From Halosolutus halophilus (lineage in GTDB: Archaea > Halobacteriota > Halobacteria > Halobacteriales > Natrialbaceae): DNA of 64,000 bases. The stretch covers positions 3,410,001-3,474,000 of the forward strand of contig NZ_CP094974.1 in assembly GCF_022869805.1 (NCBI RefSeq). The letters are read 5' to 3'. Position 1 is the first letter of the stretch, and each line of letters starts with the position of its first letter. A model generated the notes under the pieces. That model ran no database searches and was not told the origin of the DNA. It worked only from the letters and a program-made list of their open reading frames with translations. Both the position numbers and the translations under genes were made by a program. This document shows, one piece after another, positions 1-21,763 of this stretch.

Positions 1-349
1 TCTCCTCGGACCACGGCGTCAGGACCGCGTGGACCGCGTCCATCCCCTCGGCCGCGCTCGCGTCGACGTCGGTCACGTAGCCGTGTGGGATCTCGCTGCG
101 AACGACCGCGGCGTGTGCGAGGTCGGGGAACCGTTGCTCGTAATCGGCGGTGTACTTCGCCTGCCCGGTGACGAGTTTCGGATCGTCGTCTTTCTGGGCC
201 GGTCGCGAGACGCTGGCTCGCTCGTCGGGTTCCAGGTCGTTGTTCTCGGGTTCGTCCCACTCGAGGGGATGGTCCTCGAACTCGGGGGACTCCCTCTCCG
301 AACGCGATGCGGTACCGCCGTCGGGTTTCGGATCGTCTGGATCAGTCAT
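1..349 (-). CDS. Xanthine dehydrogenase family, molybdopterin-binding subunit (5' part only)
   Basis: This is the N-terminal 116 codons of a large gene that runs off the left edge. The start ATG at 349 overlaps the end of the 2Fe-2S subunit gene by 8 bases. After an acidic leader of about 45 residues comes the typical opening of the CO dehydrogenase/xanthine dehydrogenase large subunit: RPAQKDDDPKLVTGQAKYTADY, then a stretch ending VRSEIPHGYVTDVDAS. The subunit would carry the molybdenum cofactor and hydroxylate a purine or another N-heterocycle. Placement beside purine permeases, adenine deaminase, XdhC-YqeB, SelD and YqeC suggests a purine substrate and possibly a selenium-dependent cofactor (inference). 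The catalytic domain is outside the window, so the substrate cannot be read. Confidence 0.82.
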   Translation of the reverse strand, partial: MTDPDDPKPDGGTASRSERESPEFEDHPLEWDEPENNDLEPDERASVSRPAQKDDDPKLVTGQAKYTADYEQRFPDLAHAAVVRSEIPHGYVTDVDASAAEGMDAVHAVLTPWSEE

Positions 350-887
350 GCGTCTCACCGCTGCGTTCGGTCGCCTCTCGAGCGGTGGATGCGGGCGACG
401 TGCCGCCGTCCGTCGCGACGGTCCCGTCGCCGTTCATCCGCTCGGCGGCGTCGAGTATCGCTTCGACTGGTTTCTGGTAGCCGGTACACCGACACAGGTT
501 GTCGTCGATCGCCGCTCGAACGTCGGCTTCGCTCGGGTCCGGGGTCTCCTCGAGCAACGCTTTCGCCTGGATGATCATCCCCGGGATACAGAACCCACAC
601 TGGACCGCGAAGTGATCGACGAACGCCTGCTGGATCGGATGGAGGTCGTCCTGCGTGCCGAGGCCCTCGATCGTCCGGATGGACGCGCCGTCGGCCTCCC
701 GGACGGTCGTCCCGCAGGCCATCCGGGCGTCGCCCCCGATGAGTACCTTCGAGGCCCCGCAGACGCCGCCGTCACAGCCGCACTTCACGCCCGTGTAGCC
801 TTCGCGTCGCAACACCGACGCGAGGTTGTCCTCCGGCGCCGCGTCGACGTCCATCGATTCGCCGTTGACGGTCAGGGTGAACTGCAC
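342..887 (-). CDS. Xanthine dehydrogenase family, 2Fe-2S subunit (CoxS/XdhC-type small subunit)
   Basis: This 181-residue protein is the small electron-transfer subunit of a molybdenum hydroxylase. An N-terminal plant-type ferredoxin domain is followed by the helical [2Fe-2S] domain with QCGFC (Cys97, Cys100) and CRCTGYQ (Cys132, Cys134). The ferredoxin loop is unusual. The normal C-x4-C-x2-C pattern reads GCDGGVCGAS, so the third ligand position is Ser46, with Cys38 and Cys43 present, Cys58 as the distal ligand and an extra Cys36 just before. The start is GTG at 887, chosen because AGGAGG lies 7 bases upstream and the protein begins at the usual point. The C-terminal tail beyond about residue 150 is acidic and low-complexity. 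It overlaps the catalytic subunit gene and is surely co-transcribed with it. Confidence 0.9.
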   Translation of the reverse strand: MQFTLTVNGESMDVDAAPEDNLASVLRREGYTGVKCGCDGGVCGASKVLIGGDARMACGTTVREADGASIRTIEGLGTQDDLHPIQQAFVDHFAVQCGFCIPGMIIQAKALLEETPDPSEADVRAAIDDNLCRCTGYQKPVEAILDAAERMNGDGTVATDGGTSPASTAREATERSGETHD

Positions 888-1790: not shown

Positions 1791-1796
1791 TTATAT
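1791..1796 (+). promoter_or_regulatory. TATA box for the AzgA-type permease, probable leaderless start
   Basis: TTATAT at 1791-1796 lies 26-31 bases before the ATG at 1822. That is the spacing expected when transcription begins at the start codon. There is no Shine-Dalgarno before 1822. This supports 1822 over the two in-frame ATG codons upstream. Confidence 0.55.
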
Positions 1797-1821
1797 GATG
1801 ATATGGTGTGGCATGGCGTAT

Positions 1822-3219
1822 ATGTCAGATTCAACTGGCACGAACTCCCGGCTGGGGGAGTACTTCGGATTCGACGAGCACGGGACCGATCTGAAGACGG
1901 AACTGCTCGCGGGGATGACGACGTTCCTCACGATGTCGTACATCATCATCGTGAATCCCGCGATCCTCTCCGAAGCGATCCAGATCGAAGGCTACTCTCA
2001 GCAGGAGGTATTCCAGATGATCGCTATCGCGACCATTCTGGCGTCCGCCGTCGCCATCCTGGTGATGGCCTTTCACGCGAATCGACCGTTCGGATTGGCC
2101 CCGGGAATGGGGTTGAACGCGTACTTCGCGTTCACGGTCGTGATACTACTCGGCGTCCCCTGGCAAACGGCGCTCGCGGCCGTGTTCGTCGAGGGCGTGA
2201 TATTCATGGGCCTGACGTATTTCGGCGCGAGACGGTACATCATCGAGTTGTTCCCGGCACCGGTCAAGTTCGCCGTCGGTGCGGGTATCGGGTTGTTCCT
2301 GCTGTTGCTCGGTCTCATCGAGATGAACGTCATCGTCCAGTACGAAGCGACGATGGTTCAGTTGAACGACGTTGCGACGGATCCCGTCGCACTCGTCGCA
2401 CTCGCGGGACTCGCGTTCACGTTCGTTCTGTACGCACGCGATATTACCGGTGCGATCATCATCGGGATCATCACGACGGCGATCGCGGGGTGGGCGCTCA
2501 CGCTCGGCGGGGTCGTCGATCGGGGCGTCCTCGCACCGGCGGAACTCGCCTCCCCTCAGTACGATATCACGCCGCTTGCCGGGGCCTTCCTCGATGGCTT
2601 CGGTCAGATCGACCCGGCGACGTTCGTTCTGATCGTGTTCACGTTCTTCTTCGTCGACTTCTTCGACACCGCCGGAACGCTGATCGGCGTCTCACAGTTC
2701 GGCGGCTTCCTCGACGAGGACGGTGACCTGCCGGAGATAGAGAAGCCGCTGATGGCCGACGCGATCGGGACGACGTTCGGTGCGATGGTCGGGACGTCGA
2801 CGGTGACGACGTTCATCGAGAGTTCGACCGGGATCGAAGAGGGCGGGCGGACGGGCATGACGGCGCTCACAGTCGGCGTCCTGTTCCTGCTCTCGCTCGT
2901 GGCCGTGCCGCTGATCGCCGCGATTCCGCAGTACGCGTCGTACCTCGCACTGGTGGTCGTCGGGATCATCATGCTCCAGGGCGTGACGGACATCGACTGG
3001 GAGGACCCGGCCTGGCTCATCTCGGGCGGACTCACCATCACCGTGATGCCGCTCACGGCCTCCATCGCGAATGGGCTGGCGGCGGGGATCATCAGCTACC
3101 CGATCATCAAAGCGACGATGGGGGAAACGGACGACATCCACCCCGGCCAATGGGTCCTGGCCGCGGCCTTCGTGCTCTACTACTACGTCTCGGCTGGCGG
3201 CGTGATATCCGGAACGTGA
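1822..3219 (+). CDS. NCS2 family permease, AzgA/PbuG type (adenine/guanine/hypoxanthine)
   Basis: This 465-residue integral membrane protein has about 12-14 predicted transmembrane helices. It carries hallmarks of the AzgA-like branch of NCS2 transporters: TELLAGMTTFLTMSYIIIVN near the N terminus, GLAPGMGLNAYF, FFFVDFFDTAGTLIGV and GTSTVTTFIESSTGIEEGGR. Known members import adenine, guanine or hypoxanthine with protons. The start at 1822 (MSDSTGTNS) is supported by a TATA box 26 bases upstream. It precedes a second, unrelated NCS2 permease and adenine deaminase on the same strand, so nucleobase uptake followed by adenine deamination is the likely role. The exact substrate cannot be told from sequence. 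Confidence 0.9.
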   Translation: MSDSTGTNSRLGEYFGFDEHGTDLKTELLAGMTTFLTMSYIIIVNPAILSEAIQIEGYSQQEVFQMIAIATILASAVAILVMAFHANRPFGLAPGMGLNAYFAFTVVILLGVPWQTALAAVFVEGVIFMGLTYFGARRYIIELFPAPVKFAVGAGIGLFLLLLGLIEMNVIVQYEATMVQLNDVATDPVALVALAGLAFTFVLYARDITGAIIIGIITTAIAGWALTLGGVVDRGVLAPAELASPQYDITPLAGAFLDGFGQIDPATFVLIVFTFFFVDFFDTAGTLIGVSQFGGFLDEDGDLPEIEKPLMADAIGTTFGAMVGTSTVTTFIESSTGIEEGGRTGMTALTVGVLFLLSLVAVPLIAAIPQYASYLALVVVGIIMLQGVTDIDWEDPAWLISGGLTITVMPLTASIANGLAAGIISYPIIKATMGETDDIHPGQWVLAAAFVLYYYVSAGGVISGT

Positions 3220-3393: not shown

Positions 3394-4779
3394 ATGTCAT
3401 CCAACGATGGGTCCATCGAACTGGCGTACGAGTTAGAAGAGAAACCGCCGACGCTCAAGGCGATCTTCCTGGGCTTGCAACACGTCTCGGCGATGTTCGT
3501 CCCGACGATCGCAGTGGCCATCATCGTCGCCGGAGCGATCGGGACCGGTGGCGCAGACACGACCTACCTCATACAGATGGTCCTGATCTTCTCCGGGCTG
3601 GCGACGCTCGTTCAGGTGTTCCCGATCGGACCGGTCGGGGCGCGACTCCCCATCGTAATGGGATCGAGTTTCGCGTTCGTCGGTGCGGCGATAGCCATCG
3701 GCGGGCAGTACGGTCTCGACGCCGTCTTCGGTGCGATCATCATCGGCGCCCTGGTCGAGATCCTCATCGGCTGGCAGTATCAGCGGGTCAAACAGCTGTT
3801 TCCACCGCTGGTCACCGGCCTCATCGTCATGATCCTGGGTCTGTACCTGATTCCGGTCGGGATGGACTACATGGCCGGCGGAGCCGACGCTGCCGATTAC
3901 GGTGCGTACCACCACCTCGGCCTCGCCTTGCTCGTCCTGGCTATCACCGTCGGTATGAACCTCTTCATGGAGGGAATCTGGCGACTCCTCAGCATTCTCA
4001 TCGGGATCGTCGTCGGCTACGTCGTCGCCGTTGCCATCGGCATCGTCGACTTCTCCACGGTCGCGGACGCGAGTTGGTTCGCACTTCCGGTGCCCGGTCG
4101 ATTCGGGTTCGCGTTCGAACCGATCGCCGTCCTGACGTTCACCGCGATTCACATCACGGCTGCGATCGAATCGATCGGCGATATGTCCGGTATCACGGCC
4201 GCAGAGGGCCGTACTCCGGACGATTCCGAAATTCGCGGCGGCCTGTTCGTCGACGGTCTCGGCAGTTCACTCGGCGCCGTCTTCGGAGCGTTCCCGCTGA
4301 CGACGTTCTCACAGAACGTCGGCATCATCAATTTCACCGGCGTGATGAGCCGGTACGTGGTCGGCATCAGTGGTGCCGTGCTGCTGGCGCTCGGTTTCAT
4401 TCCGAAGGTCAGTGCCGTCGTCGCGACGATTCCCCAGGCCGTTCTCGGCGGTGCGGTGATCGTCATGTTCGGGATGGTGATGGCGAGCGGTCTTCGGCTC
4501 ATCTTCCTGAACGAACGCATGAATCGGCGGAACATGGTCATCATCGCCGTCTCGATCGGTCTCGGCCTCGGCGTCGAAGTCCGACCCGAGATATTCGAGG
4601 CGATGCCCAGGGGCGTGACCATCTTCTTCGGCAACGCCATAATCATGACCGCTCTCTGTGCGGTCCTGCTCAACTCTCTCGTCCCGCGCCCGGACGGAGA
4701 CTACGAGATGGGACTCGAGGAACCGGTCGACGGCGACCAGCCGTCGCCCGCCGAACGCTCTGCCGTGCAGGAAGACTAA
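3394..4779 (+). CDS. NCS2 family permease, nucleobase-ascorbate type (uracil/xanthine/urate)
   Basis: This 461-residue membrane protein belongs to the nucleobase-ascorbate transporter branch of NCS2, distinct from the AzgA-type gene before it. Visible signatures are the LQHVSAMF motif in helix 1, the PIGPVGARLPIVMGSSFAFV stretch, and the AAIESIGDMSGI motif holding the substrate-contacting Glu of helix 8. It is followed by LTTFSQNVGIINFTGV in place of the usual family signature. Family members take up uracil, xanthine or uric acid. Beside a xanthine-dehydrogenase-type enzyme, xanthine or urate is the best guess (inference). A 174-base gap separates it from the upstream permease and may hold its own promoter near 3350-3360. 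Confidence 0.9.
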   Translation: MSSNDGSIELAYELEEKPPTLKAIFLGLQHVSAMFVPTIAVAIIVAGAIGTGGADTTYLIQMVLIFSGLATLVQVFPIGPVGARLPIVMGSSFAFVGAAIAIGGQYGLDAVFGAIIIGALVEILIGWQYQRVKQLFPPLVTGLIVMILGLYLIPVGMDYMAGGADAADYGAYHHLGLALLVLAITVGMNLFMEGIWRLLSILIGIVVGYVVAVAIGIVDFSTVADASWFALPVPGRFGFAFEPIAVLTFTAIHITAAIESIGDMSGITAAEGRTPDDSEIRGGLFVDGLGSSLGAVFGAFPLTTFSQNVGIINFTGVMSRYVVGISGAVLLALGFIPKVSAVVATIPQAVLGGAVIVMFGMVMASGLRLIFLNERMNRRNMVIIAVSIGLGLGVEVRPEIFEAMPRGVTIFFGNAIIMTALCAVLLNSLVPRPDGDYEMGLEEPVDGDQPSPAERSAVQED

Positions 4780-4894: not shown

Positions 4895-6565
4895 ATGAAT
4901 CGCGTCGACACACTCGTTCGAGGGACGCTCGTCAACGTCAACACGGGCGTGCTCGAGGACCGCGCGATCGCCATCGACGACGGGGACGTGGTCGCACTCG
5001 AGGAGCGGCCGGCGGACCGCGAACTCGAGGCCGAATACGTCGCACCGGGACTGATCGACGCACACAAACACGTCGAATCGAGCATGGTCACGGTGCCACA
5101 GTACGGCGAAGCGATGGTTCCTCGCGGGGTCACCAGCATCGTCCACGACCCCCACGAGATCGCGAACGTCCTCGGCGTCGACGGCGTCCGGGCCGCCTTC
5201 GAGGACGCGACGAAAACGCCGTTGAAGGTCCGGTTTAGCGTTCCCTCGAGCGTTCCCGCTTCGAACCTGCAAGACGGCGGAGCCACGCTCGACGCGGACG
5301 ACGTCGCGGCGTTACTCGATCACGAACACGTCGTCGCACTCGGCGAGGTGATGGACCTCCCGGCACTGGTTTCGGGCGATTCGGACCTTCACGCGAAGAT
5401 CCGCGCCGCCCGAGAGCGCGGGTTGACCGTCGACGGGCACCTCCCTCGGGTGTCCGGATCGGACCTGCAGGAAGCCGCACGCTACCTCGACACCGATCAC
5501 GAGAGCATCACCGAGGCCGAGGCACGCGAGAAAGTCGATCTCGGATTCCGGGTCTACCTTCGCGAAGGGTCGTCGTCGAAGAACCTCGCCGATCTCGTCG
5601 GCCTCGTCGACGACGTCCCCACGCGTCGGCTGTCGCTGTGTTCGGACGATCGAGACGTGGTCGATCTGGTCGAAAACGGCGGCGTCGACTTCGCAGTGCG
5701 AAAGGCGATCGACGAAGGCGTCGACCCGGTCGAGGCCGTACAGATGGCGACGCTGAACACGGCGGAGAGCTACGATCTCCCGTTCGGGCGGATCGAACCC
5801 GGCGCGCCGGCCGATCTGGTGCTGCTCGAGGATCTCGAGACGTGGTCCGTCGATCGCGTTCTCGTCGACGGGCAACTCGATCCCACGCGTACCGATCGCG
5901 ATCCGCCGGCGACCGCGCTTTCGACGGGCACCGTCGACTTCGATCCAGTCACGGGGCGTGACCTGGCGCTCGATGCGCCGAAATCGCCGGCGGAGCGCGC
6001 CACCGTCCGCGTGCTCGAACTCACCGGCGGAATCCAGACGGGACGCGCGGAGGCGTCACTTCCCGTCGGGGACGGCACGATCGAACCGATGCCCGATGAC
6101 GACGTGCTCGCGATGGCGGTTATCGAGCGACACGGACGCGACGCCGGTATCGGTCGCGGCTTCGTCCGCGGACTCGGCCTGGAGCGCGGGGCGATCGGGT
6201 CGACGGTCGCCCACGACGCGCACAACTGCGTCGTCGCCGGCACGGCGTTCGACGCGATGGCTCGAGTTGCGAACCACCTCCGGGACATCGACGGTGGCGT
6301 CGCCGTGTGCGATCCGGAACGGGACGGCGAGGAGATTGCGGCGGTTCCCCTTCCGGTCGCGGGTCTGATGTCCGACGACCCGCTGACCGACGTCTGCGAG
6401 CGGTTCAAGTCGGTCGTCGCTCGGGCGGAAGCCCTCGGGCTCGGCCGGCACGGACTGATGACCCTCTCGTTTCTCGCACTCGAAGTGATCCCCGAGTATC
6501 GGCTGACGAATCGGGGACTGGTCGACGTCGAGCGCTGGGAACACGTCGACGTCGTGATCGAGTGA
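4895..6565 (+). CDS. ade: Adenine deaminase
   Basis: This 556-residue amidohydrolase converts adenine to hypoxanthine and ammonia. The metal-site strand reads APGLIDAHKHVESSMV and is followed by the family-specific VHDPHEIANVLGVDGV. Later motifs match too: DGHLPRVSGSDL, TDHESITEAEA, LCSDDRD and the VRKAIDEG helix. The C-terminal region (TVAHDAHNCVVAGT, VAGLMSD) is the typical adenine deaminase C-terminal domain. A purine-rich CGGAGGG sits about 20 bases before the ATG. The product feeds hypoxanthine to Hpt (13325-13876) or to the molybdenum hydroxylase at the left edge. It probably shares transcription with the permease ahead of it (115-base gap). Confidence 0.93.
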   Translation: MNRVDTLVRGTLVNVNTGVLEDRAIAIDDGDVVALEERPADRELEAEYVAPGLIDAHKHVESSMVTVPQYGEAMVPRGVTSIVHDPHEIANVLGVDGVRAAFEDATKTPLKVRFSVPSSVPASNLQDGGATLDADDVAALLDHEHVVALGEVMDLPALVSGDSDLHAKIRAARERGLTVDGHLPRVSGSDLQEAARYLDTDHESITEAEAREKVDLGFRVYLREGSSSKNLADLVGLVDDVPTRRLSLCSDDRDVVDLVENGGVDFAVRKAIDEGVDPVEAVQMATLNTAESYDLPFGRIEPGAPADLVLLEDLETWSVDRVLVDGQLDPTRTDRDPPATALSTGTVDFDPVTGRDLALDAPKSPAERATVRVLELTGGIQTGRAEASLPVGDGTIEPMPDDDVLAMAVIERHGRDAGIGRGFVRGLGLERGAIGSTVAHDAHNCVVAGTAFDAMARVANHLRDIDGGVAVCDPERDGEEIAAVPLPVAGLMSDDPLTDVCERFKSVVARAEALGLGRHGLMTLSFLALEVIPEYRLTNRGLVDVERWEHVDVVIE

Positions 6566-6630: not shown

Positions 6631-6638
6631 CTTATTAT
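6631..6638 (+). promoter_or_regulatory. TATA box of the DsrEFH-like/xdhC-yqeB operon
   Basis: CTTATTAT at 6631-6638 lies 24-31 bases upstream of the ATG at 6662. This fits a leaderless transcript covering the four tightly coupled genes to 9205. It separates this operon from adenine deaminase, which ends at 6565. Confidence 0.5.
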
Positions 6639-6661: not shown

Positions 6662-7033
6662 ATGATCCACGTCGGGTTCTTGCTCACCGGCGGTCCCTTC
6701 GATAGCGAACGGTGGCGCACCGCCTACGAACTCGGGCGTGCGGCACTCGACGCCGGTCACGAGGTCACGTACTTTCACTATCTCGACGGCGCGTACGTTC
6801 CGGTCGCCGACCAGCGCCTCCCCGACTGTTCGGACGCGGGACTGTACGACGAGATGCCGACCGAGAAGTTTCAGGAGTTGATCGCCGACGGTGCGGACGT
6901 GATCTGTTGCGGGCTATGCGTCAACGCGCGGGGTATCGACGCCGAGACCGATTACCCGGACGGCGTCGAGGTCGGCTTGCTGCCGGATCTCGCGGACACG
7001 ATCGGCGAGGCCGACAGGGTGATCTCGCTATGA
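6662..7033 (+). CDS. DsrE/TusD-like sulfur (or selenium) relay protein
   Basis: This 123-residue protein has the DsrE-like fold. It opens with MIHVGFLLTGGPFDSERW, has a YELGRAALDAGHEV helix-turn, and carries the Cys segment CCGLCVNARGI (Cys82, Cys83, Cys86) where TusD/DsrE carry their persulfide-bearing cysteine (C-V-x-A-x-R-G). In TusBCD and DsrEFH this subunit accepts persulfide sulfur from TusA. Its stop overlaps the next start (ATGA), and three more genes follow in the same operon, ending with an XdhC-YqeB fusion. It therefore probably serves molybdenum hydroxylase maturation rather than tRNA thiolation (inference). No dsrAB genes are nearby. Confidence 0.75.
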   Translation: MIHVGFLLTGGPFDSERWRTAYELGRAALDAGHEVTYFHYLDGAYVPVADQRLPDCSDAGLYDEMPTEKFQELIADGADVICCGLCVNARGIDAETDYPDGVEVGLLPDLADTIGEADRVISL

Positions 7034-7383
7034 AACGGGACGTCGTCGTCGTGCTCACGCGAACGCCGTACGGACGGGTCCACGTCCCGGAGGGCCTCCG
7101 GGCGGCACGCGGCGTCGCGGCCGGGTTCGATCGACACGACGTCTCGGTCGTGTTCACGCAGGACGGCGTCTACGCCGCTCGCGCGGCCGTCGACAGAGAT
7201 GCGCTCAATATGACGGACCACCTCGCCGATCTGGCGGCGGAAGACGGGGACCTGTTCGTCGACGAAGCGTCGATGACGGCACGAAACGTCACGAGCGAGG
7301 AGATCGCCCCCGACGTCAGTATCCGGTCCGGCGAGGAGGTCGCATCGATGATCGAACGGGCGGATCACGCGCTCGACTTTTGA
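7030..7383 (+). CDS. DsrE-family protein, DsrF/TusC-like
   Basis: This 117-residue protein starts at the ATG of an ATGA overlap with the preceding gene. The fold pattern is DsrE-like: an opening strand VVVVLTRTPYGRVHVPEGLR, a helix of small residues (AARGVAAGF), then VSVVFTQDGVYAAR. It has no cysteine, as is common in the DsrF/TusC partner, which mainly has a structural role. Position between a DsrE-like and a DsrH-like gene supports an alpha2-beta2-gamma2-type complex (inference from known DsrEFH). Confidence 0.7.
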   Translation: MKRDVVVVLTRTPYGRVHVPEGLRAARGVAAGFDRHDVSVVFTQDGVYAARAAVDRDALNMTDHLADLAAEDGDLFVDEASMTARNVTSEEIAPDVSIRSGEEVASMIERADHALDF

Positions 7384-7385
7384 CA

Positions 7386-7631
7386 ATGCTCTATCTGATA
7401 GACGAACCGATGGCGGAGATCGGACGCAGAACCGCAGCGACCGACGCCGACGGCATCGTCGTCCTGATACAGGACGGCGTCCTGCTCAATCCGGATCTCG
7501 ACGTCCCGACGCTCGCGGTCGAACGGGACGTCGAGATGCGCGGCGCGAGCCTGCCCGATCGGATCGACACCGTCACGTACGACGAACTGATCGAACTCAT
7601 GGTCGACCACGAGGTGAGGAGTTTCGTATGA
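7386..7631 (+). CDS. DsrH/TusB-like protein
   Basis: This 81-residue protein begins MLYLIDEPMAEIG at the ATG at 7386. An in-frame TTG two codons earlier is less likely. It has the small DsrH/TusB pattern: an N-terminal strand, then a segment reading GIVVLIQDGVLLNPDL, where DsrH/TusB normally has a V-L-L-x-D-A/G-V strand, then a second alpha-beta pair ending in IELMVDHEVRSFV. The Cys found in many DsrH proteins is absent. It lies 2 bases after the DsrF-like gene and overlaps xdhC-yqeB by ATGA, so all four are translationally coupled. Confidence 0.65.
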   Translation: MLYLIDEPMAEIGRRTAATDADGIVVLIQDGVLLNPDLDVPTLAVERDVEMRGASLPDRIDTVTYDELIELMVDHEVRSFV

Positions 7632-9205
7632 CGCTGTTCGATCGCGTGGACGACCTCGTCGAACGGGGCCGACCGGCCGCGATGCTGACGGTCGTCGACA
7701 AAGATGGCAGCGCACCGCGGGACGTCGGGGCGAAGATGCTCGTGACCGAAGACGACGCGTTCGGCACGATCGGCGGCGGGACGGTCGAGGGACTCGCCGT
7801 CGACGAAGCCCGTGACGTCCTCCGAGGTGATGCGGAGCCGGGAGTCCGGACGTACGAACTGCGACCCGGTGGCAACACGGGGATGGTCTGTGGCGGCTCT
7901 ATGGACGTCTTCGTCGATCGGATCCGCGGCCGCTCCCGGCTCTACGTTGCGGGTGGCGGACACATCGCGGTCGAACTCGCGGCGATGGGCGGACGGCTCG
8001 GCTACGACGTCACCGTCGTCGACGACCGCGACGAGTACGCGTCCCCGGAGCGGTTTCCCGCGGCGACCGACGTCGTTCACGATGACTACGACGAGGCGCT
8101 CGCCGGGCTCCCGATGACGTCGGAAACGGCGGTCGCCGTCGCGACGCGAAGCGGCACGTTCGACCAGCAGGCCGTCGCCGCTGCACTCGACGGCGGTGCC
8201 GGCTACGTCGGCGTCGTCGCCAGCGAGGACAAGGCCGCACACATCGTCGACTCGTTGCTCGAGGACGGCTACTCGCGTCGCGAACTCGTTCGCGTTCGCT
8301 CGCCCGTCGGTCTCGATCTCGGCGGTGGCGGGCCAGAAGACGTCGCGCTCTCGACCCTCGCCGAAATCCACCGCGATCGCCACGGAGCGACCGGCGAGCG
8401 CGCGACCCGCGAGAACCTCGAGGATCTCATCGTCGTCCGGGGCGGCGGCGACCTCGGGACCGGCGTGGTCTACCGCCTCCAGCAGGCCGGGTTTCCGGTC
8501 GTCGTCACCGAGACGGCTCAGCCGACCGTCGTCCGTCGCGAAGTCGCGTTCGGGGCGGCGATGTACGAAGACGACGTCACCGTCCAAGGCGTGACGGGCC
8601 GTCGCGTCGACGACGTGGACGAGGCGATCGCCGTTCTCGCCGACGACGCGGTCCCCGTCCTCGAGGATCCGACCGCCGCCATCGTCGACGAACTCGAGCC
8701 CGGGGTGGTCGTCGACGCGATCATGGCGAAAGGGAAGGCAGACACCGGAACTCGGAGGGATCTCGCCGACGTCGTCGTCGGTCTCGGACCGGGGTTCGAG
8801 GCCGGCGAGAACGTGGACGCGGTCGTCGAAACCGATCGGGGACACGAACTCGGACGCGTCATCTACGACGGTAAACCGAGTCCGTACGACGGCGAACCGG
8901 GTGACCGACGGGGATACACGCACGAACGCGTCCTGCGGGCACCGAGCGACGGCGAGTGGTCACCGGCGGTCGAAATCGGCGACGTCGTCGAGGCGGAGTC
9001 GATCGTCGGCCACGTCGACGACGATCCGGTCGTCACGGAGATCGGGGGGCTAGTCCGGGGACTCGTCCACGAGGGCGTCCCCGTCTCCACGGACGCGAAA
9101 CTCGGCGACGTCGACCCTCGCGAGGACGTCGATCACGCGAAACTCTCGGACAAAGCGCTCTGTCTCGGCGGCGGCGTCCTCGAGGCGGTGCTCAAACTCT
9201 CGTAG
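7628..9205 (+). CDS. XdhC-YqeB fusion, molybdenum hydroxylase maturation factor
   Basis: This 525-residue protein has two parts. Residues 1 to about 255 are XdhC/CoxI-like: DKDGSAPRDVGAKMLV, GTIGGGTVEG, a VCGGSMDVFVD segment, a Rossmann strand RLYVAGGGHIAVELA, and a C-terminal SPVGLDLGGGGPEDVALS. XdhC proteins bind and sulfurate the Mo cofactor for insertion. Residues about 266-525 match the YqeB family of the selenium-dependent molybdenum hydroxylase system: VVRGGGDLGTGVVYRLQQAG, TETAQPTVVRREVAFG, VVDAIMAKGKADTG and VGLGPGFEAGENVDAVVET. The two activities are normally separate genes. It is the last gene of the operon that begins with the DsrEFH-like trio and converges on selD. The fusion supports one dedicated maturation machine. 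Confidence 0.85.
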   Translation: MTLFDRVDDLVERGRPAAMLTVVDKDGSAPRDVGAKMLVTEDDAFGTIGGGTVEGLAVDEARDVLRGDAEPGVRTYELRPGGNTGMVCGGSMDVFVDRIRGRSRLYVAGGGHIAVELAAMGGRLGYDVTVVDDRDEYASPERFPAATDVVHDDYDEALAGLPMTSETAVAVATRSGTFDQQAVAAALDGGAGYVGVVASEDKAAHIVDSLLEDGYSRRELVRVRSPVGLDLGGGGPEDVALSTLAEIHRDRHGATGERATRENLEDLIVVRGGGDLGTGVVYRLQQAGFPVVVTETAQPTVVRREVAFGAAMYEDDVTVQGVTGRRVDDVDEAIAVLADDAVPVLEDPTAAIVDELEPGVVVDAIMAKGKADTGTRRDLADVVVGLGPGFEAGENVDAVVETDRGHELGRVIYDGKPSPYDGEPGDRRGYTHERVLRAPSDGEWSPAVEIGDVVEAESIVGHVDDDPVVTEIGGLVRGLVHEGVPVSTDAKLGDVDPREDVDHAKLSDKALCLGGGVLEAVLKLS

Positions 9206-9254: not shown

Positions 9255-10283
9255 CTACCCGCGAACCCGTTCGATCGTCGGATCGACCAGCGCCGCGCCG
9301 GTACCGGTAGTGACGCGGCCGACCTCGCGATGGAAAACGCCGGCGGCCGAGAGGGAATCCTCGAACGCATCGGTCCGCCGTTCCGGGACCGACAGCAACA
9401 GCCCACCGCTCGTTTCCGCGCTCTCGCCGTCCTCGAGACCGTAGCCGAAGAGCTGTGAGAGTTCGAGGGTCCCCTCGATGACGGGGAGGTGCGTGAGTTC
9501 GACGCCGACGCCGGCGCTCTCGGCGAGGACGCGAGCCTGTCCGAGGAGGCCGAACCCCGTGACGTCTGTCGCGGCCGTCGCGTACTCGCGGGCCGCGAGC
9601 ATCGCGGCCCTGTTCGGCGTCGTCATCCACGCGAGCGCCTCGTCGGCGACGGTCCCGACGGGACGGGGCGTCGTTTCGGCGATCGTCTCGCCGAACTCTC
9701 CGTCCTGTACTCGAAGGGCGCCCATCGCCGCCTGGGTCCCGAGGGGTTTCGTCAGGTACAGGTACTCGGACGGCGACGCGTCGCTCATCCGTAGCAGGTG
9801 CTCGGGCGACGCGGTCGCGGCGACGGTTCCCCCGGCGATCGGCCACGGGTTCATGATGGTGTGGCCACCGGCGACGACGCCACCCATGTCCTCCACCGCG
9901 TCGACGATACCGCCCAGAATCTCCGTGGCCGCGTCCGTTACCTCCCGCGGGAGGCCGAGCACGACGAGAAACGTCAGATCGTCGCCGGCGCCCGACGCGA
10001 AGGCGTCGCTGGCGGCGTTACACGCGGCGACGCGACCGAATTCGTACGGATCGTCCACGATCGGCGTGAAGAAATCGATCGTCGTCACGAGACTGCGATC
10101 GTCGCCGATCGAACGGGCGCTCGCGTCCTCACCGACGCCGAACTGCAGTTCCGCCTGTGCACCCGACAACCCGACGTCGGCGAGCAGCGAGTCGAGGTCG
10201 TCCTGACCGACCTTGCACGAGCAGCCGTGGAGGTCCGCGTATTCGGTCAGCGCCGGCGAGCGATCGTCTCCCTCGTCAGTCAT
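9255..10283 (-). CDS. selD: Selenide, water dikinase (selenophosphate synthase)
   Basis: This 342-residue SelD makes selenophosphate from selenide and ATP. The catalytic loop reads HGCSCKVGQ, keeping the Cys and Lys of the bacterial GCGCK site with Ser in the middle. Other family motifs are VTTIDFFTPIVDDPYEFGRV, ACNAASDAFASGA and AGGHTI, with an ATDVTGFGLLGQ segment in the C-terminal half. No selenocysteine codon or SECIS is implied, since the catalytic residue is Cys. The gene overlaps a TusA-like gene by 8 bases and faces xdhC-yqeB. SelD without Sec machinery beside yqeB and yqeC is the signature of the selenium-dependent molybdenum hydroxylase trait (established knowledge); absence of selA/selB cannot be judged from one window. 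Confidence 0.93.
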   Translation of the reverse strand: MTDEGDDRSPALTEYADLHGCSCKVGQDDLDSLLADVGLSGAQAELQFGVGEDASARSIGDDRSLVTTIDFFTPIVDDPYEFGRVAACNAASDAFASGAGDDLTFLVVLGLPREVTDAATEILGGIVDAVEDMGGVVAGGHTIMNPWPIAGGTVAATASPEHLLRMSDASPSEYLYLTKPLGTQAAMGALRVQDGEFGETIAETTPRPVGTVADEALAWMTTPNRAAMLAAREYATAATDVTGFGLLGQARVLAESAGVGVELTHLPVIEGTLELSQLFGYGLEDGESAETSGGLLLSVPERRTDAFEDSLSAAGVFHREVGRVTTGTGAALVDPTIERVRG

Positions 10284-10656: not shown

Positions 10657-11409
10657 ATGAATCTCGCCGACGGGCTCGGCCTCGGAGCCGAGGAACTCGT
10701 CTCGTTCGTCGGTGCCGGCGGAAAAAAGACCGCCATGGGGCACCTGGTCGCAGCGGCGGGTGATCGCGGACTCGACGCGGGCTACACCACGTCGACGCAC
10801 ATGCCGCCGCCGACGGATCTCCCGCTCGTTCTCGCCGACCCCGACCGCGTTCGGACCGTACTGGACGACGAGACGGCGCCGATCGCGCTGGCGAGCGACC
10901 ACGTCGCCGATCCGGACCGCGTCGACGAGAAAGTTCGAGGCTACGAGCCCGCCGTCCTGAGTTCGCTGTTTCGAGACGGGGACCTCGACTGGCTCCTCGT
11001 CAAAGCCGACGGAGCCAGAATGCGCGAATTCAAGGCGCCGGGGCCGGACGAACCGCCCATTCCCCGGGCGAGCACGTGCGTCGTCCCGGTCGCGTCCGTG
11101 CAGGCCGTCGGCCAGTCACTCACGGACGACGTCGCCCACCGCGTCGATCGGATCGAACGCTGTACCGATACCGCCGAGGGGGAGCGGATCACGCCAGAAA
11201 CCGTTGGCCGAGTACTTGCGCATCCTGCTGGTGGGCGAAAGAACGTCCCCGACGACGCGACGATCGTCCCGCTCGTCAACAAGGCGGACGACGACGCTCT
11301 CGAAAGACGTGCGGAGGAAGTCCTCTCGGCGGCGTTCGAGCACACCACGCGGTTCGATCGGGGGCTCATCTCCTCGTTCGAGACGAATCGGCTCACAGTC
11401 GTCCCGTGA
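10657..11409 (+). CDS. yqeC: YqeC-family selenium-dependent molybdenum hydroxylase accessory protein
   Basis: This 250-residue protein matches the YqeC family. It has a P-loop-like VSFVGAGGKKTAMGHL near residues 15-30, a GYTTSTHMPPP segment, DWLLVKADGARMREFKAPG and a late PLVNKADDD that resembles a nucleotide-specificity loop. YqeC occurs almost only in genomes with the selenium-dependent molybdenum hydroxylase trait, where it is thought to act in cofactor maturation; its biochemistry is not settled. GGTGAGGT about 8 bases before the ATG serves as a ribosome binding site. It is divergent from the tusA-selD pair, with 120 bases between, and converges on a histidine kinase gene. Confidence 0.88.
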   Translation: MNLADGLGLGAEELVSFVGAGGKKTAMGHLVAAAGDRGLDAGYTTSTHMPPPTDLPLVLADPDRVRTVLDDETAPIALASDHVADPDRVDEKVRGYEPAVLSSLFRDGDLDWLLVKADGARMREFKAPGPDEPPIPRASTCVVPVASVQAVGQSLTDDVAHRVDRIERCTDTAEGERITPETVGRVLAHPAGGRKNVPDDATIVPLVNKADDDALERRAEEVLSAAFEHTTRFDRGLISSFETNRLTVVP

Positions 11410-15657: not shown

Positions 15658-18600
15658 TCAGTCCCCGTCCCGCGGGCCGAACTCGTCCGGGTCCCATCGC
15701 TCCTCCCGGCCGACCGGGCCGTCCATGTACCAGGCGTCGTCCTCGTCGGGGTCGGTCGGCGGGGCGATCGGTCGCTTGAGCCACTTCGGCCGGCGCTTGC
15801 CGTCCGGCCCACCGGCCGGTCGGGTCTCCTCGACCCACTCGCGGTAGATTTCCATGGACCGATCGGTATCGACGTAGACGTCGCCGTAGTAGTCGTCCGG
15901 CTTCGCCGGCCGGACCCGGACCTTCTGGTGCCAGCAGTGCATCCCCGAGATGGGGTCGGGATGGGGCGCGTGCGTGAGGTTCTGCGGGACGCCCCCGTCG
16001 GTCCACCAGACCCGGGCGGAGTCGGGGTCGTCGCTGTCGAAGGGACCGATGCCGGACTGCTGGCGCATCCCCCAGCTGCTGTCATCGTCTTTCAGGTCGA
16101 CCGTGACCTTCCCGTAGGGGTCGCCGCCCTCGTCGAAGTCCCCTTCGGCCTCGCCGTCGCCGTCGCGGTCGATCTTCCACTGGCCCATGTGGTGGCTCAT
16201 CGCGGCGATCCCGGGTTTGATGGACTCGGTGACCCACACCTCGTTGACGTAGTAGCCGATGTCGGTCTCCACGCGCACGAGGTCGCCCGTCTCGACCCCC
16301 AGTCGCTCGGCGTCTTTGCTGTGGAGCCAGACGGGGTTGTTGTGCGAGATTTCCTCTAGCCACTTGGAGTTCGACGATCGGGAGTGGATCTGGGTCGGTA
16401 ACCGGAAGGTGGGCACCAGCACCATCTCGCCGTCGTCGTAGTCGATGTTCTCGGGGTGGACGTGGCTCTTCAGGTAGTGGGGAATGGTGTACTCCTCGTC
16501 GTCCCAGCCCCACTCCGCGAGCGTCTTCGAGTAGAACTGCTGTTTGCCGGTCGGGGACGGGAACCCGCGTTTCGGTTCGCCGTCCACCATCACGCCTAGC
16601 ACCTGGGTGTCGACGTCCGAGAGTCCGCCGTGGGGAATCGTGTCGTACCCGCCGGGGTAGTCAGAGCCCTCGTCGATTTCGGCCGACTCCGCCGCCCCGT
16701 CGGGAATCGAGACGTCGGCGTCCTCGTCCAGTACACGGTGGATGGTCCCGTACTCGTCGACGAACACGTCGTCTTCCTCGAGGAGTGCCGGATCGAGCGG
16801 CTCCTCGTGGAGTTCGTACTCGTTCCGGCTGGCCTCGAACGCCCCGTGGTGTTTCATGTACTCCAGGGGCTCCATACCGGCCTCCTCGGCGGCCTCGACG
16901 AGGTTCTCCTCGTGCTCGAAGATGTAGCGGTAGTACTCGTCGATGGTCATCTGGGGCGGTTCGTCCGTGGCCCCGTCAGTGCCCGTCGCCTCCCGATCGG
17001 CCGCGCCGTCGTCCCGCTGTTCGGTCGTGCCGCCGTTCGCCGCGGACGTCTCCCGATCGCGGTAGGGGCTCTCGAAGTACTCCCGGATTCCCAGTTCGCC
17101 GTCCTCGTCGATGCGCCAGGAGAGGTCCATCCAGAACTCGTCTTCCTCCCAGACCTCGCCCGGATTCGCCTCGTAGGTGCGCTCGATGTCCGCGCCCTCG
17201 CGCTCGGCGTATTCCCGCTGGACGGGCTGTCGGTAGGTGACCCACGTCGCGGCGTGGGTCTCCTGGCTCTGGATGTCGTGGCGCTCGGGGCTGTGGCCCA
17301 TCGGCAGGACGTAGTCGGCGAAGTACGCCGTCTCGTTCCAGGTGGGCGTCAGCGCGACGTGCATCCCGACCTTGTCCTCGTCGCTCAGCGCCTCGATCCA
17401 GGAGAACCCGTCGGGGTAGGTGTAGACGGGGTTGAACACGCGGGTGAAGTAGACCGACAGCTTCCCGCGACCCTCCTTGAGGAAGTACGGCAGAAGCTGG
17501 CTCATCTCGTAGTGGGCGAACGGCCACTCCGGCGGCAACTGGAGTTCGTCCCAGAGCTTCTGGCGCGGCGGCTCCTTCGGCATCTCCGGCTCGAACTGGT
17601 GCCAGGCGTTGGGCGAGGTGCCGCCCTTCGTGCCGACGCTCCCGGTGAGCACGGACAGGAAGTGCAGCGTGCGACTGACCTGCCAGCCGCCCCTGTTCCC
17701 CGACGCCGCAGAGCGCCAGATGTGGCTGGCGAACCGGTCGCCGGCGAGACCGATCTTCCGGCCGACCTTCTCGATGGTGGCGGCGTCGACGCCGCTCTCC
17801 GCCTCGACGTACGCCGGCGTGAAGTCCGCGTACGTCTCCCGGAGCACGTCGAGGTACGTCTCGAACGTCCGCTCGCGTCCGTGGTGTTCCTCGTCGAGGA
17901 ACTGCCGCCAGTTCACCCAGTTGCGGAGGAACTCCTCGTCGTAAAGCCCCTCCTCGAGGATGACGTTGGCCATCGCTAGCAGAACCGCGGCCTCGCTGCC
18001 GGGCTGAGTGGGCAGCCAGTAGTCCGACATGGCGGCCGTGTTCGACAGCCGCGGATCCAGAACCGCGAGCTGGCCCCCTTCCATGACGCCCTCGATGATG
18101 CGCTGGGCGTGCGGGTTGAAGTAGTGGCCGGACTCCAGGTGGGCGGACAGCAGCAGGATAAACTCGGCGTTGGCGAAGTCCGCACTCGGCCGATCGTACT
18201 TGTGCCAGAAGGCGTAGCCCGCCCTGGCGCCCGACGAGCAGATGTTCGTGTGGGAGTTGTGGCCGTCGACCCCCCAGGCGTTGATGACCCGGTCCATGTA
18301 CCCCTCGTGGCCGGGCCGGCCGACGTGATAGGTGATCTCGTTCTCGCGGTCGTCCTCGATGGTCTCGCGCATCTCGGAGGCGATGTCATCGAGGGCGTCG
18401 TTCCAGGAGACGCGGGTCCACTCGCCGCTCCCGCGCGGCCCGTCCCGCTTGAGCGGATAGCGGATACGCTGGGGATCGTTGATCTGGTTGATAGTGGCCG
18501 GCCCCTTCGCGCAGTTGCGCCCCCGGCTTCCGGGGTGTTCGGGATTGCCCTCTATCTTGCGTATCTCGCCGGTCTCCTTGTCGATATAGGTCAGCAGACC

Positions 18601-18858
18601 GCAGCCTGCCTCGCAGTTGAAGCAGGCCGTGGGGACGACCGAGTACTCCTTCGGGAGGCCCTCGGACTCGTACTCGACCCAGTCGTGCCACTGCTCGGGG
18701 TCTGGGTAGGAGCCGAGTTCGCCCTCCGGGGCGATGCGGTCGATGCCGTCCACGCCGCGGCGCTGTCGTTGCTTCTTCGTCTCCTCGGTGCGGTTCGAGA
18801 TGACGCCGAGTCGCTCGGCGACTTTCTCTATGCGGCTCGGTTCGAATTCGTGTCCCAT
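15658..18858 (-). CDS. Molybdopterin oxidoreductase, SoeA-like (sulfite-oxidising or polysulfide/tetrathionate-type) catalytic subunit
   Basis: This 1066-residue enzyme belongs to the DMSO reductase family. The N-terminal [4Fe-4S] site is C79-x2-C82-x3-C86 with C116 in GSRGRNCAKG. The segment GHNSHTNICSSGARAG (about 199-214) holds Cys207, the likely Mo ligand. I recognise this stretch and the following LESGHYFNPHAQRIIEG from the SoeA/PSRLC3-type group. There is no Tat signal, so the enzyme is probably cytoplasmic, as in SoeABC. Residues about 600-640 form an inserted low-complexity acidic stretch. The ATG at 18858 lies 2 bases after the stop of the Fe-S/NrfD gene. TusA and DsrE genes next door point to sulfur chemistry. 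Polysulfide, tetrathionate or thiosulfate reductase activity cannot be excluded. Confidence 0.72.
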   Translation of the reverse strand: MGHEFEPSRIEKVAERLGVISNRTEETKKQRQRRGVDGIDRIAPEGELGSYPDPEQWHDWVEYESEGLPKEYSVVPTACFNCEAGCGLLTYIDKETGEIRKIEGNPEHPGSRGRNCAKGPATINQINDPQRIRYPLKRDGPRGSGEWTRVSWNDALDDIASEMRETIEDDRENEITYHVGRPGHEGYMDRVINAWGVDGHNSHTNICSSGARAGYAFWHKYDRPSADFANAEFILLLSAHLESGHYFNPHAQRIIEGVMEGGQLAVLDPRLSNTAAMSDYWLPTQPGSEAAVLLAMANVILEEGLYDEEFLRNWVNWRQFLDEEHHGRERTFETYLDVLRETYADFTPAYVEAESGVDAATIEKVGRKIGLAGDRFASHIWRSAASGNRGGWQVSRTLHFLSVLTGSVGTKGGTSPNAWHQFEPEMPKEPPRQKLWDELQLPPEWPFAHYEMSQLLPYFLKEGRGKLSVYFTRVFNPVYTYPDGFSWIEALSDEDKVGMHVALTPTWNETAYFADYVLPMGHSPERHDIQSQETHAATWVTYRQPVQREYAEREGADIERTYEANPGEVWEEDEFWMDLSWRIDEDGELGIREYFESPYRDRETSAANGGTTEQRDDGAADREATGTDGATDEPPQMTIDEYYRYIFEHEENLVEAAEEAGMEPLEYMKHHGAFEASRNEYELHEEPLDPALLEEDDVFVDEYGTIHRVLDEDADVSIPDGAAESAEIDEGSDYPGGYDTIPHGGLSDVDTQVLGVMVDGEPKRGFPSPTGKQQFYSKTLAEWGWDDEEYTIPHYLKSHVHPENIDYDDGEMVLVPTFRLPTQIHSRSSNSKWLEEISHNNPVWLHSKDAERLGVETGDLVRVETDIGYYVNEVWVTESIKPGIAAMSHHMGQWKIDRDGDGEAEGDFDEGGDPYGKVTVDLKDDDSSWGMRQQSGIGPFDSDDPDSARVWWTDGGVPQNLTHAPHPDPISGMHCWHQKVRVRPAKPDDYYGDVYVDTDRSMEIYREWVEETRPAGGPDGKRRPKWLKRPIAPPTDPDEDDAWYMDGPVGREERWDPDEFGPRDGD

Positions 18859-18860
18859 AA

Positions 18861-20657
18861 TTAGGCGAGCGAGATGGTCTGCGGGGCGGTTATCCAGCAA
18901 TACTCGAAGGCAAACAGGCCGGCCAGCGCGAGCGCGCCGGCCACCGCCGCGAGGACGGGCCAGCCGACGGCCAGCGCGGCCAGCGGCAGCAGGATGCCGA
19001 CGACGACGCCGCCGATCCAGAACGCCGTCCGGAACCGACCGCGGGTGATGCGCGCGGCGGCTTCCTCGGCGTCCTCGGTCTGGTGAGGCGTGAAGATCTC
19101 GGAGGCGACCAGCACGGCGTGCAGGACGAGGCCGGCTCCGAGGGCAAGCGCCGACGGACCGACCATCGCCTCGAATCCCGGCACACCCGCGACGCCGAGG
19201 ACGATCAGTGTCGCGCCCCCGGCGACGATCGACTGCGCGAACATGTGCAGCGGCATCGCGGGGCTCTGCCAGAGGTCGCGTCCTTTCGACTGGCTGAACA
19301 GAAACGCCGTGTAGACCGCCGTCGCCGCGCCGAGGACGGCGGCCGCGCCCAGCGAGAGCGGGTGGACGACGGCTTCGATTCCCAGGAGTGCTCCCAGGAC
19401 GGCCAGCCCGAGGTACGCGCCGGCCGCCGAGATGATGTAGGCTCCCTTCACGAGCCAGGAGTTCCAGTTCGGCCGCAACAGCACCCAGTGAAACCGGGTC
19501 GGCTGTTCGAGGTCCAGGACGAGGAGCACGCCGGTCGCCGCCAGGAACAGACCGCTGACGAACGCGCTCGCGCCGAAGGCGGTCACGTCGGGTTCGACTA
19601 CGCCGAACAGCATGAACAGCGCCGAGAGCAGCAACGTCCCGGCCGAGATCCCCTTCGTCCAGGTGTAGGAGTACACCTCCCAGCCCCAGGACCCGTAGTG
19701 GTCTTCGCCGATGTCGTAGACCCGCGTTGCCTCCTCGTGGAGGAGTTCGTAGGCTCGCTCGGTCCGGCCTTTCGAGTCGTCGGACCCGCTCCGTCTTGCG
19801 GGCTCGGTTCCGTACCCGCCATCGGACTGGACGTCACTCGTGTTCGTCGACGACGCGGACGCGTCCTCCTTGCCGCACCCACAGGAATCACAGCCACAGT
19901 CCGTTCGCCCGCCGTCGGCGCGGGCATCCGCGTCGTCCGATCCCCCGGCATCGCCCAGCGAGACGTCGGACGCCGCGAGCGACTCGGCGGCCTTCTCGAG
20001 GTCGAAGTCGGGGACCGCTTCGCCCTCGGTCTCGACCTGGTGGGGAGCGTCGCTCCACATGTAGTGTTCCTCGCGGGCGGTCGTGCCCGGGGTGGTGCTG
20101 CCCTCGTCGCCGTCGACGTAGAACAGCTTCGGCTCCGTGCCCTTCTCGGGCTTGCGGGCCTGGACCTCCTCGCGGGAGGCGGTGCGGGCGATTTCGCTGT
20201 CGGGGTTCTCGAGATCGCCGGCGACGATCGCGTCCTCCGGGCAGACGGTGACGCAGGCCGGCTCTCGCCCCGTGTCGACCCGGTGGCTGCAGTAGTTACA
20301 CTTCGCAGCCGTCTCCGTGTTCGGGTCGATGTAGAGCGCGTCGTACGGACAGCCCTGCATGCAGGCCTTACAGCCGATGCAACGCTCCGGATCGAAGTCG
20401 ACGATGCCGTCCTCGCGTTCCCACAGTGCCGTCACGGGACAGACGTCGGTGCAGGGGGAGTCGTCGCAGTGGTTACACCGCATCACCGAGAAGTTGCGGT
20501 TCGTATTGGGGAACTCGCCTTTCTCGATGTACTTGACCCAGGTCTTGTTCACACCGATCGGGTCGTCGTGCTCGCTCTTGCAGGCGACGGTACAGGCGTG
20601 ACAGCCGATACATCTCCTGTTGTCGATGACGAAGCCGTAGTTCGTTATAGGGGCCAC
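18861..20657 (-). CDS. Fused 4Fe-4S ferredoxin and NrfD-type membrane anchor (SoeB-SoeC-like)
   Basis: This 598-residue protein joins two subunits that are usually separate. Residues 1-190 carry four [4Fe-4S] motifs: CIGCHACTVAC, CNHCDDSPCTDVCP, CIGCKACMQGCP and CNYC with CVTVCP. A linker of about 120 acidic residues contains a compact DCGCDSCGCG. From about residue 330 there are eight or so hydrophobic helices typical of NrfD/PsrC quinone-reactive anchors (WTKGISAGTLLLSALFML onward). It would pass electrons between the Mo subunit and the menaquinone pool. The start is taken as GTG at 20657, the only plausible start before the first cluster motif; a purine-rich GGAG directly abuts it, so the start is uncertain. 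The next gene begins 2 bases after its stop. Confidence 0.78.
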   Translation of the reverse strand: MAPITNYGFVIDNRRCIGCHACTVACKSEHDDPIGVNKTWVKYIEKGEFPNTNRNFSVMRCNHCDDSPCTDVCPVTALWEREDGIVDFDPERCIGCKACMQGCPYDALYIDPNTETAAKCNYCSHRVDTGREPACVTVCPEDAIVAGDLENPDSEIARTASREEVQARKPEKGTEPKLFYVDGDEGSTTPGTTAREEHYMWSDAPHQVETEGEAVPDFDLEKAAESLAASDVSLGDAGGSDDADARADGGRTDCGCDSCGCGKEDASASSTNTSDVQSDGGYGTEPARRSGSDDSKGRTERAYELLHEEATRVYDIGEDHYGSWGWEVYSYTWTKGISAGTLLLSALFMLFGVVEPDVTAFGASAFVSGLFLAATGVLLVLDLEQPTRFHWVLLRPNWNSWLVKGAYIISAAGAYLGLAVLGALLGIEAVVHPLSLGAAAVLGAATAVYTAFLFSQSKGRDLWQSPAMPLHMFAQSIVAGGATLIVLGVAGVPGFEAMVGPSALALGAGLVLHAVLVASEIFTPHQTEDAEEAAARITRGRFRTAFWIGGVVVGILLPLAALAVGWPVLAAVAGALALAGLFAFEYCWITAPQTISLA

Positions 20658-20931: not shown

Positions 20932-21192
20932 ATGAGTACGGAACACAGAGTCACCGAAACGCTCGACGTGAAAGGACTGAACTGTCCGATGCCAGTCGTC
21001 AAGGCGAAGCAGGCGGTAGACGGCCTCGAATCGGGAGACGTCCTCGAGATCGTCGCGACGGACCCCGGGAGCGTATCCGACATCGAGGGATGGGCGAACG
21101 CGACGGGCAGCGTAAAACTCCTCGAACAGGACGAGACCGACGAGGACGGCGAGACCGTCTACCGACACTACGTCCGGAGGACAGACGCATGA
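20932..21192 (+). CDS. TusA-family sulfur carrier protein
   Basis: This 86-residue protein has the TusA fold and the active-site motif LNCPMPVVKAK with Cys18 in CPxP. It would carry persulfide sulfur between a sulfur donor and acceptors such as DsrE proteins. The ATG at 20932 gives a standard length and follows a TATA-like AAATATT at about -25. An upstream in-frame extension shows no family similarity. The stop overlaps the next start (ATGA). It is distinct from the selD-linked TusA at 10276-10536, sharing little beyond the CPxP motif. Grouped with DsrE2 and DsrE it resembles the TusA-DsrE2 sulfur-trafficking sets of sulfur-oxidising prokaryotes. Confidence 0.92.
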   Translation: MSTEHRVTETLDVKGLNCPMPVVKAKQAVDGLESGDVLEIVATDPGSVSDIEGWANATGSVKLLEQDETDEDGETVYRHYVRRTDA

Positions 21193-21761: not shown

Positions 21762-21763
21762 CC

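Follow-up and report, generated by a model that had tools for sequence, protein, structure and literature searches.

In DsrEFH-type complexes, sulfur is carried by DsrE on Cys78/67 (PMC3397948, PMC13293266), Cys78 being described as the sulfur-carrying residue in DsrEFH (PMC3397948), and DsrE is loaded by TusA in the complexes of type II (PMC13293266). According to the text on YedF, archaea lack this protein, and its DsrE domain has CGXC as motif (PMC5322559); the suspected role of YedF is the delivery of reduced selenium to SelD. The mechanism of selenium insertion into the labile cofactor, and even its origin from selenophosphate, are stated to be unknown in a C. difficile study that tests SelD, YqeB and YqeC and whose text contains neither 'sulfurtransferase' nor 'TusA' (PMC11448449). 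In haloarchaea, the papers on the orphan-SelD cluster of Haloarcula marismortui plasmid pNG700 name in their text SelD, a SirA-like/TusA protein, YqeB-XdhC, YqeC, a MobA-related protein and a hydroxylase (PMC2276186, PMC2432076).

The window, i.e. the whole stretch of 64,000 nucleotides that was analysed (G000:C1:3410001-3474000), lies on a haloarchaeal contig of 5.06 Mb and carries on its forward strand three consecutive small genes, whose products are called p1, p2 and p3, or together the trio. p1 (6662..7033, 123 aa) is a DsrE/TusD-like subunit with a CGLC motif (C83-C86) in addition to C56 and C82, p2 (7030..7383, 117 aa) a DsrF/TusC-like subunit without conserved cysteine, and p3 (7386..7631, 81 aa) a DsrH/TusB-like subunit, also without conserved cysteine, for which an in-frame TTG at 7380 is an alternative start. 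With a probability of roughly one half, the trio is a DsrEFH-type relay, recruited together with TusA, that carries selenium for the labile selenium-molybdenum cofactor, in the role of YedF. Its family, its operon, its strict co-occurrence and its cysteine pattern are the observed parts of this relay.

On the same strand, the trio is followed by the gene of an XdhC-YqeB fusion (7628..9205), the maturation factor of the Se-Mo cofactor (TIGR03309, 338.5 bits for a cut-off of 220; PF13478, PF02625), whose start sits within the stop of p3 (ATGA). The reverse strand encodes the selenide water dikinase SelD, with its HGCSCK motif (9255..10283; TIGR00476, 257.3 bits for 125; NF010705, 295.2 bits for 291), and a TusA-like carrier with C11, in a CPxP motif, and C48 (10276..10536; PF01206, 55.2 bits). 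The end of tusA and the start of selD overlap by 8 nt, and the top NCBIfam match of this TusA is the TusA half of YedF. YqeC, a selenium cofactor biosynthesis protein, is encoded beyond them on the forward strand (10657..11409; TIGR03172, 178 bits for 73.05); SelD, YqeB and YqeC, the gene set of the Se-cofactor trait, all exceed their model cut-offs. To the left of the trio lies a Mo hydroxylase, with its [2Fe-2S] subunit (342..887, reverse strand; PF01799 and XDH-family models) and the start of its Mo-binding large subunit (1..358, reverse strand; XdhA_XDHase, 654.5 bits, under the cut-off of 780), which continues beyond the left edge of the window (L066 15906-18359); another Mo hydroxylase pair comes after it. 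Two purine-permease-like genes (1795-3219 and 3394-4779), named from the annotation of their N. halophilum orthologues, and an adenine deaminase gene (4895-6565; TIGR01178, 471 bits, slightly under the cut-off of 472.5) come next on the forward strand, a RidA gene being also found among these purine genes. Together, these genes make up a locus of purine catabolism with selenium-dependent Mo hydroxylases (SDMH). A TATA-like box (TTATTAT, 6632..6638, forward strand), seen in the sequence 24-30 nt 5' of the p1 start, suggests that a nearly leaderless transcript of its own may begin at the trio; in most trio loci, an A/T-rich hexamer was recognised by eye at a similar position 5' of p1. The window holds a second set, TusA - DsrE2 - DsrE-like (20932-22159), whose DsrE2 scores 175 bits, under the cut-off of 210. 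This set adjoins a large Mo oxidoreductase-like operon on the opposite strand (15658-20657, named by eye), and probably has a role in the metabolism of sulfur oxyanions that is independent of the trio.

That the three ORFs are DsrE-, DsrF- and DsrH-like, as the initial annotation had read them, is borne out by Pfam, NCBIfam and PDB-sequence profiles, which place the proteins inside the DsrE superfamily. p1 and p2 score 71.3 and 52.2 bits with PF02635 (DsrE; cut-off 22.7), and p3 of the window 21.6 bits with PF04077 (DsrH; cut-off 24.4), a model that is matched at E <= 0.1 by all 16 p3 orthologues scanned (best 3.8e-7). With NCBIfam, each protein matches the correct subunit, p1 TusD (20.2 bits for a cut-off of 89.25), p2 TusC (TIGR03010; 41.7 for 94.15) and p3 TusB (TIGR03011; 24.4 for 49.2), and none reaches the cut-off of the TusBCD equivalogs (TIGR03010/03011/03012). 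When profiles of the orthologue sets were compared with PDB sequences, p1 retrieved A. vinosum DsrE (2hy5_A, 7.7e-4), p2 DsrF (2hy5_B, 3.1e-6) and p3 TM0979 (4.6e-7), which we take to be a DsrH-family structure; the profiles also align p1, p2 and p3 to E. coli TusD, TusC and TusB, respectively. Monomer structures predicted from shallow alignments are of low or modest confidence (pLDDT 51.4 for p1 and 69.8 for p3). A Foldseek search with the p1 model places DsrE and TusD on top, but with rmsd > 13 A and E >= 3.2e-3, and nothing DsrH-like is found with the p3 model among the matches listed; sequence profiles were therefore relied on. RefSeq names p1 and p2 'DsrE family protein', and p3 either 'hypothetical' (two records) or 'DsrH/TusB family' (one).

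The organisation of the trio was compared over 40 loci, window included, which correspond to 32 distinct sequences after removal of duplicates. The initial annotation had the three genes coupled by ATGA overlaps. This is true of p1/p2, overlapping by 4 nt in 38 of 40 loci (30/32 distinct, i.e. all but two distinct trios), and of p3/xdhC, with a 4-nt overlap in 39/40 loci (31/32 distinct), but not of p2/p3, which in the window are separated by 2 nt if p3 begins at its ATG, and by 1-3 nt in all 40 loci. p1 is the most conserved of the eight cluster proteins compared, with a median identity to the window protein of 87%, versus 54-72% for the others: p2 66%, p3 62%, XdhC-YqeB 72%, SelD 65%, TusA 57%, YqeC 54% (38 loci) and Ade 67% (13 loci). 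Over the same six pairs, pN/pS is 0.02-0.16 for p1, 0.07-0.37 for p2 and 0.18-0.58 for p3. The trio is thus not due to chance, because there are 32 distinct full trios with near-constant spacing and pN/pS values of 0.02-0.58. It could still consist of passenger genes playing no part in the pathway, since the cluster resides mostly on megaplasmids, which may allow its transfer in one piece. This is hardly credible, given the degree of conservation and the low pN/pS of p1, and given that the trio is kept in two rearranged clusters: in that of a Halodesulfurarchaeum MAG (L104), Mo-hydroxylase genes split the trio from XdhC-YqeB and the trio nevertheless stays in the cluster, and it is also retained in L085. 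Halodesulfurarchaeum is a genus of sulfur-respiring haloarchaea.

Cysteines had been noted in the first protein only. p2 and p3 of the window indeed have none, but p1 has four, C56 having been overlooked besides C82, C83 and C86. Among the distinct trios, C83 and C86 are kept in 32/32, and C56 and C82 in 31/32, the sole exception being that of the Halodesulfurarchaeum MAG, where CGLC is retained. The cysteines found in p2 are each shared by at most 6/32, and those in p3 by at most 1/32. C86 aligns with Cys78 of E. coli TusD, and C11 (CPxP) of the Se-locus TusA is kept in 32/32; this TusA has a second invariant cysteine, C48 (32/32). As CGXC is termed a redox-active motif in the text on YedF (PMC5322559), the CGLC pair might instead belong to a redox module, or one for the detoxification of selenium or persulfide, that reduces perselenides or disulfides and so shields SelD and the Mo enzyme. 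Such a module would leave unexplained both the two cysteine-free partner subunits and the alignment with the catalytic cysteine of TusD, and we regard it as very improbable.

The position of tusA bears on another possibility, namely that TusA and the trio feed reduced selenium to SelD and never to the Mo cofactor, the coupling to xdhC-yqeB reflecting co-regulation. tusA abuts or overlaps selD, with a spacing of -14 to +17 nt in 39 of the 40 loci (32 distinct), and a YedF/SirA-like gene adjoins selD in several bacteria according to the text of two papers (PMC2276186, PMC2432076). However, it is to xdhC-yqeB, and not to selD, that the trio is coupled by the nearly constant p3/xdhC overlap, and supply of SelD alone appears quite unlikely to be its function.

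Concerning descent, the trio had been proposed to be a split, three-subunit archaeal version of YedF. The CGLC of p1 does fit the CGXC pattern of the YedF DsrE domain. YedF itself (TIGR03527, cut-off 110) is over cut-off in none of the 242 haloarchaea surveyed, and TusD models are matched by all 14 p1 orthologues, whereas YedF is matched by 6/14 only (E <= 10), with a best E of 0.14. When the p2 profile was run on 294 genomes of the phylum, strong matches were restricted to the four trio-bearing haloarchaea of the sample, and six other genomes gave weak ones. One of these six (G479) has a DsrE, DsrF, DsrH operon (L137). Its DsrE shares the CxxC of p1 and is recognised by the p1 profile (E 7.1e-16, 36% identity), whereas its DsrH gives only a marginal match to p3 (E 0.016); the same survey draw showed no SelD in this genome. 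By sequence, p1's nearest non-selenium relative found is thus the DsrE of a DsrE-DsrF-DsrH operon of the same phylum. An origin of the trio by splitting of YedF finds no support in the weak YedF scores or in this relative and was rejected, and we conclude from pairwise profile scores that an archaeal DsrEFH was presumably recruited, from which the trio would descend. A YedF-like way of working is the part of the proposal that we retain, as an inferred one. Bacteria that have the Se-cofactor trait use YedF, which counts against the relay that we favour.

The CxxC motif was also considered as a selenium marker and discarded, because non-selenium DsrE proteins carry it: it is present in the DsrE of G479 and in another DsrE of the window genome. 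The latter, a third DsrE-like protein (G000:C1:1778815-1779126; L003 1498-1821), has 107 aa and a CGTC motif, and no DsrF- or DsrH-like ORF was noticed beside it, so that CGxC occurs there outside the Se locus. The DsrEFH operon of G479 and a DsrF-bearing operon of G385 (L137 2276-3082 and L132 2213-3007, respectively) both open with a protein that has HTH and Fe-S-cluster domains, which is perhaps a redox regulator. The only non-haloarchaeal SelD of the phylum sample belongs to G423; in the region around it, the ORF list, inspected by eye, contains a SepSecS-like ORF and neither TusA nor DsrE.

The trio is linked to selenium by its distribution. Among the 242 haloarchaeal genomes, the same 21 have p1 (E < 1e-50) and p2 in full length together with over-cut-off YqeB and SelD, and trio and selenium genes are adjacent in all 21. 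Close homologues are thus found beside Se/Mo genes in 21 of 21 genomes, and never away from them. Close p1/p2 orthologues are missing from the 221 haloarchaea without over-cut-off SelD, two of which hold remnants only. These counts depend on the thresholds used: SelD-like matches at E <= 0.001 occur in all 242 genomes, and only the 21 over cut-off were counted; YqeB matches occur in 39 genomes, of which 18 are weak and below cut-off (best E 6.6e-5 to 9.4e-4; one of them G073) and were excluded; and neither the weak p2 match in G062 nor the p2 remnant in G073 was taken as an orthologue. A tally of p1 in 207 of 242 genomes was rejected, the other listed matches having E >= 1.5e-6 and lying for many of them in frames of more than 600 aa; listed matches beyond the 21 orthologues and a remnant in Natronococcus jeotgali were not counted, and one that was checked (L058) corresponds to an ORF of 622 aa, and no gene of the size of DsrE is present there. 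The 21 genomes span 7 of 74 genera, and species without the whole set are present in 5 of these 7, so that the set must have been gained or lost several times. For the 21/0/0/221 table, Fisher's test yields 1e-30, a figure that linked transfer makes meaningless as a count of independent events, which are fewer than 21 because the whole cluster travels together on megaplasmids.

Two loci have decayed. In N. jeotgali (L065 2280-2520), p1 ends after 34 codons and is fused to an XdhC scrap, adenine deaminase and permeases being kept beside it; in G073 (L138 9050-9560), only pieces of p1, p2 and XdhC-YqeB are left. SelD over cut-off is absent from both genomes, and these two loci form a natural record of the block loss of the Se-cofactor trait.

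A p1 scan of genome contigs gave 18 loci, 17 full and one remnant, the full ones being all haloarchaeal by name; SelD, YqeB and TusA are present in 17/17 of them and YqeC in 16/17 within the stretch covered (the exception being L102). Among plasmid records, p1 is found in 15, and the same 15 have its TusA and a Mo large subunit at 83-91% identity. The next haloarchaeal plasmid records, with a Mo large subunit at 61-62% (three records) or 42% (one), are without p1. In three of these four, a purine Mo-hydroxylase cluster is present and no SelD, YqeB, YqeC, TusA or DsrE is annotated in the stretch; one of the three has a stand-alone XdhC. The TusA search of plasmids gave 24 places in the 15 records, and a second TusA-like match lies near some Se loci (L066 12026-12217; L087 3180-3395; L103 and L105 near 15300).

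As the trio occurs only where Se-Mo enzyme genes occur, it probably hands selenium to that cofactor. Alternatively, it could carry sulfur for the same enzymes, for example to provide the Mo cofactor with its terminal sulfido ligand or to serve Fe-S supply, and its linkage to selenium genes would arise because these enzymes require both elements. The DsrEFH/TusBCD complexes studied in two of the papers do carry sulfur (PMC3397948, PMC13293266), in Rhodobacter capsulatus the persulfide sulfur of NifS4 is described as going to the XdhC-bound cofactor (PMC2997495), and the trio-like operon of G479 occurs without SelD in the same survey draw. This nevertheless seems unlikely, since no trio lies beside the purine Mo-hydroxylase clusters without SelD and YqeB in the three plasmids examined, and since close p1/p2 orthologues are missing from every haloarchaeon without over-cut-off SelD, the two remnants apart.

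The partners of the known sulfur systems are absent as well. DsrC/TusE (PF04358) was found in 0/21 trio genomes, with the E. coli control being detected, and MnmA over cut-off in 0/21, 20 of them having weak sub-threshold matches. The trio is therefore without either textbook acceptor, and a role as tRNA thiolation or Dsr partner was rejected for these genomes. Selenouridine synthase (YbbB) and SepSecS were likewise found in 0/21, and the Se-cofactor is therefore the sole use of SelD found in the 21 genomes, so that a genetic test should be easier to interpret in them than in bacteria that combine several selenium traits.

We infer that selenium, and not sulfur, is the cargo of the trio, and propose the following selenium relay. 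TusA would pick up reduced selenium as a perselenide on C11, and selenium would go from there to C86 of p1, the equivalent of Cys78, in a complex completed by the cysteine-free p2 and p3 and probably assembled as p1-p2-p3 heterotrimers or as a dimer of heterotrimers. C83 of p1 would attack the S-Se bond and free selenium in a protein-shielded form, which would reach the XdhC-YqeB-bound Mo cofactor, either directly or once activated by SelD. We prefer XdhC-YqeB as acceptor in view of the translational coupling of its gene to the trio; it would put the seleno-cofactor into the Mo hydroxylases encoded alongside. p1-p3 would do the work of the DsrE half of bacterial YedF, and would stand in for the cysteine desulfurase from which XdhC is supplied in the case of sulfur-type Mo hydroxylases. 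More tentatively, and on balance doubtfully, the trio could be a dedicated selenotransferase, i.e. a DsrEFH heterohexamer with a perselenide on p1 C86, C83 as the resolving cysteine and direct transfer to the Mo cofactor of XdhC-YqeB; if true, the labile selenium cofactor would gain its first known protein relay, and DsrEFH complexes a first member acting on a non-sulfur element. Selenium depletion of Methanococcus maripaludis raises the transcripts of a 'TusAD' pair by 4.5-4.6 log2, which the text of that study leaves unexplained (PMC11097638); this TusA/TusD pair is an independent hint, and is possibly a related archaeal selenium carrier. The trio may be the missing archaeal part of selenium delivery to the labile cofactor. 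If the selenium relay is right, DsrEFH works outside sulfur oxidation and tRNA thiolation, and using such genes as markers of haloarchaeal sulfur oxidation would therefore mislead.

Like DsrEFH of A. vinosum and TusBCD of E. coli, the trio is made of small genes in direct succession, one from each of the three families, with TusA encoded nearby, and has a conserved cysteine, aligned with Cys78, in the DsrE/TusD-like subunit only. It differs by scores below the TusB/C/D equivalog cut-offs, by the extra partner cysteine of CxxC, by the absence of DsrC/TusE from its genomes and by its linkage to SelD, YqeB and Mo hydroxylases. It is also, like DsrEFH type II, a divergent trio; type II is TusA-fed and has some archaeal members, but is reported with dsrAB/dsrMK/qmo or yeeE, in a main text where 'seleni' and 'Halobacter' do not occur (PMC13293266, 2026). 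With YedF (TIGR03527), the TusA-DsrE fusion of selenium bacteria, it has in common the CPxP of TusA, the CGxC of the DsrE domain and the linkage to SelD, whereas its proteins are separate, two subunits are additional, TusA is in a different operon and the match of p1 to the YedF model is unconvincing. The G479 operon has the same gene order and a common CxxC but, unlike the haloarchaeal trio, adjoins an HTH/Fe-S regulator-like gene, in a genome without SelD in its survey draw. In the openly accessible article texts covered, no paper was found that describes a DsrEFH trio in an archaeal selenium locus, and the text of the papers on the pNG700 cluster does not name the trio (PMC2276186, PMC2432076). 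The locus described here is the same cluster as the orphan-SelD cluster of pNG700, where the trio lies at 249606-250575 of NC_006395.1.
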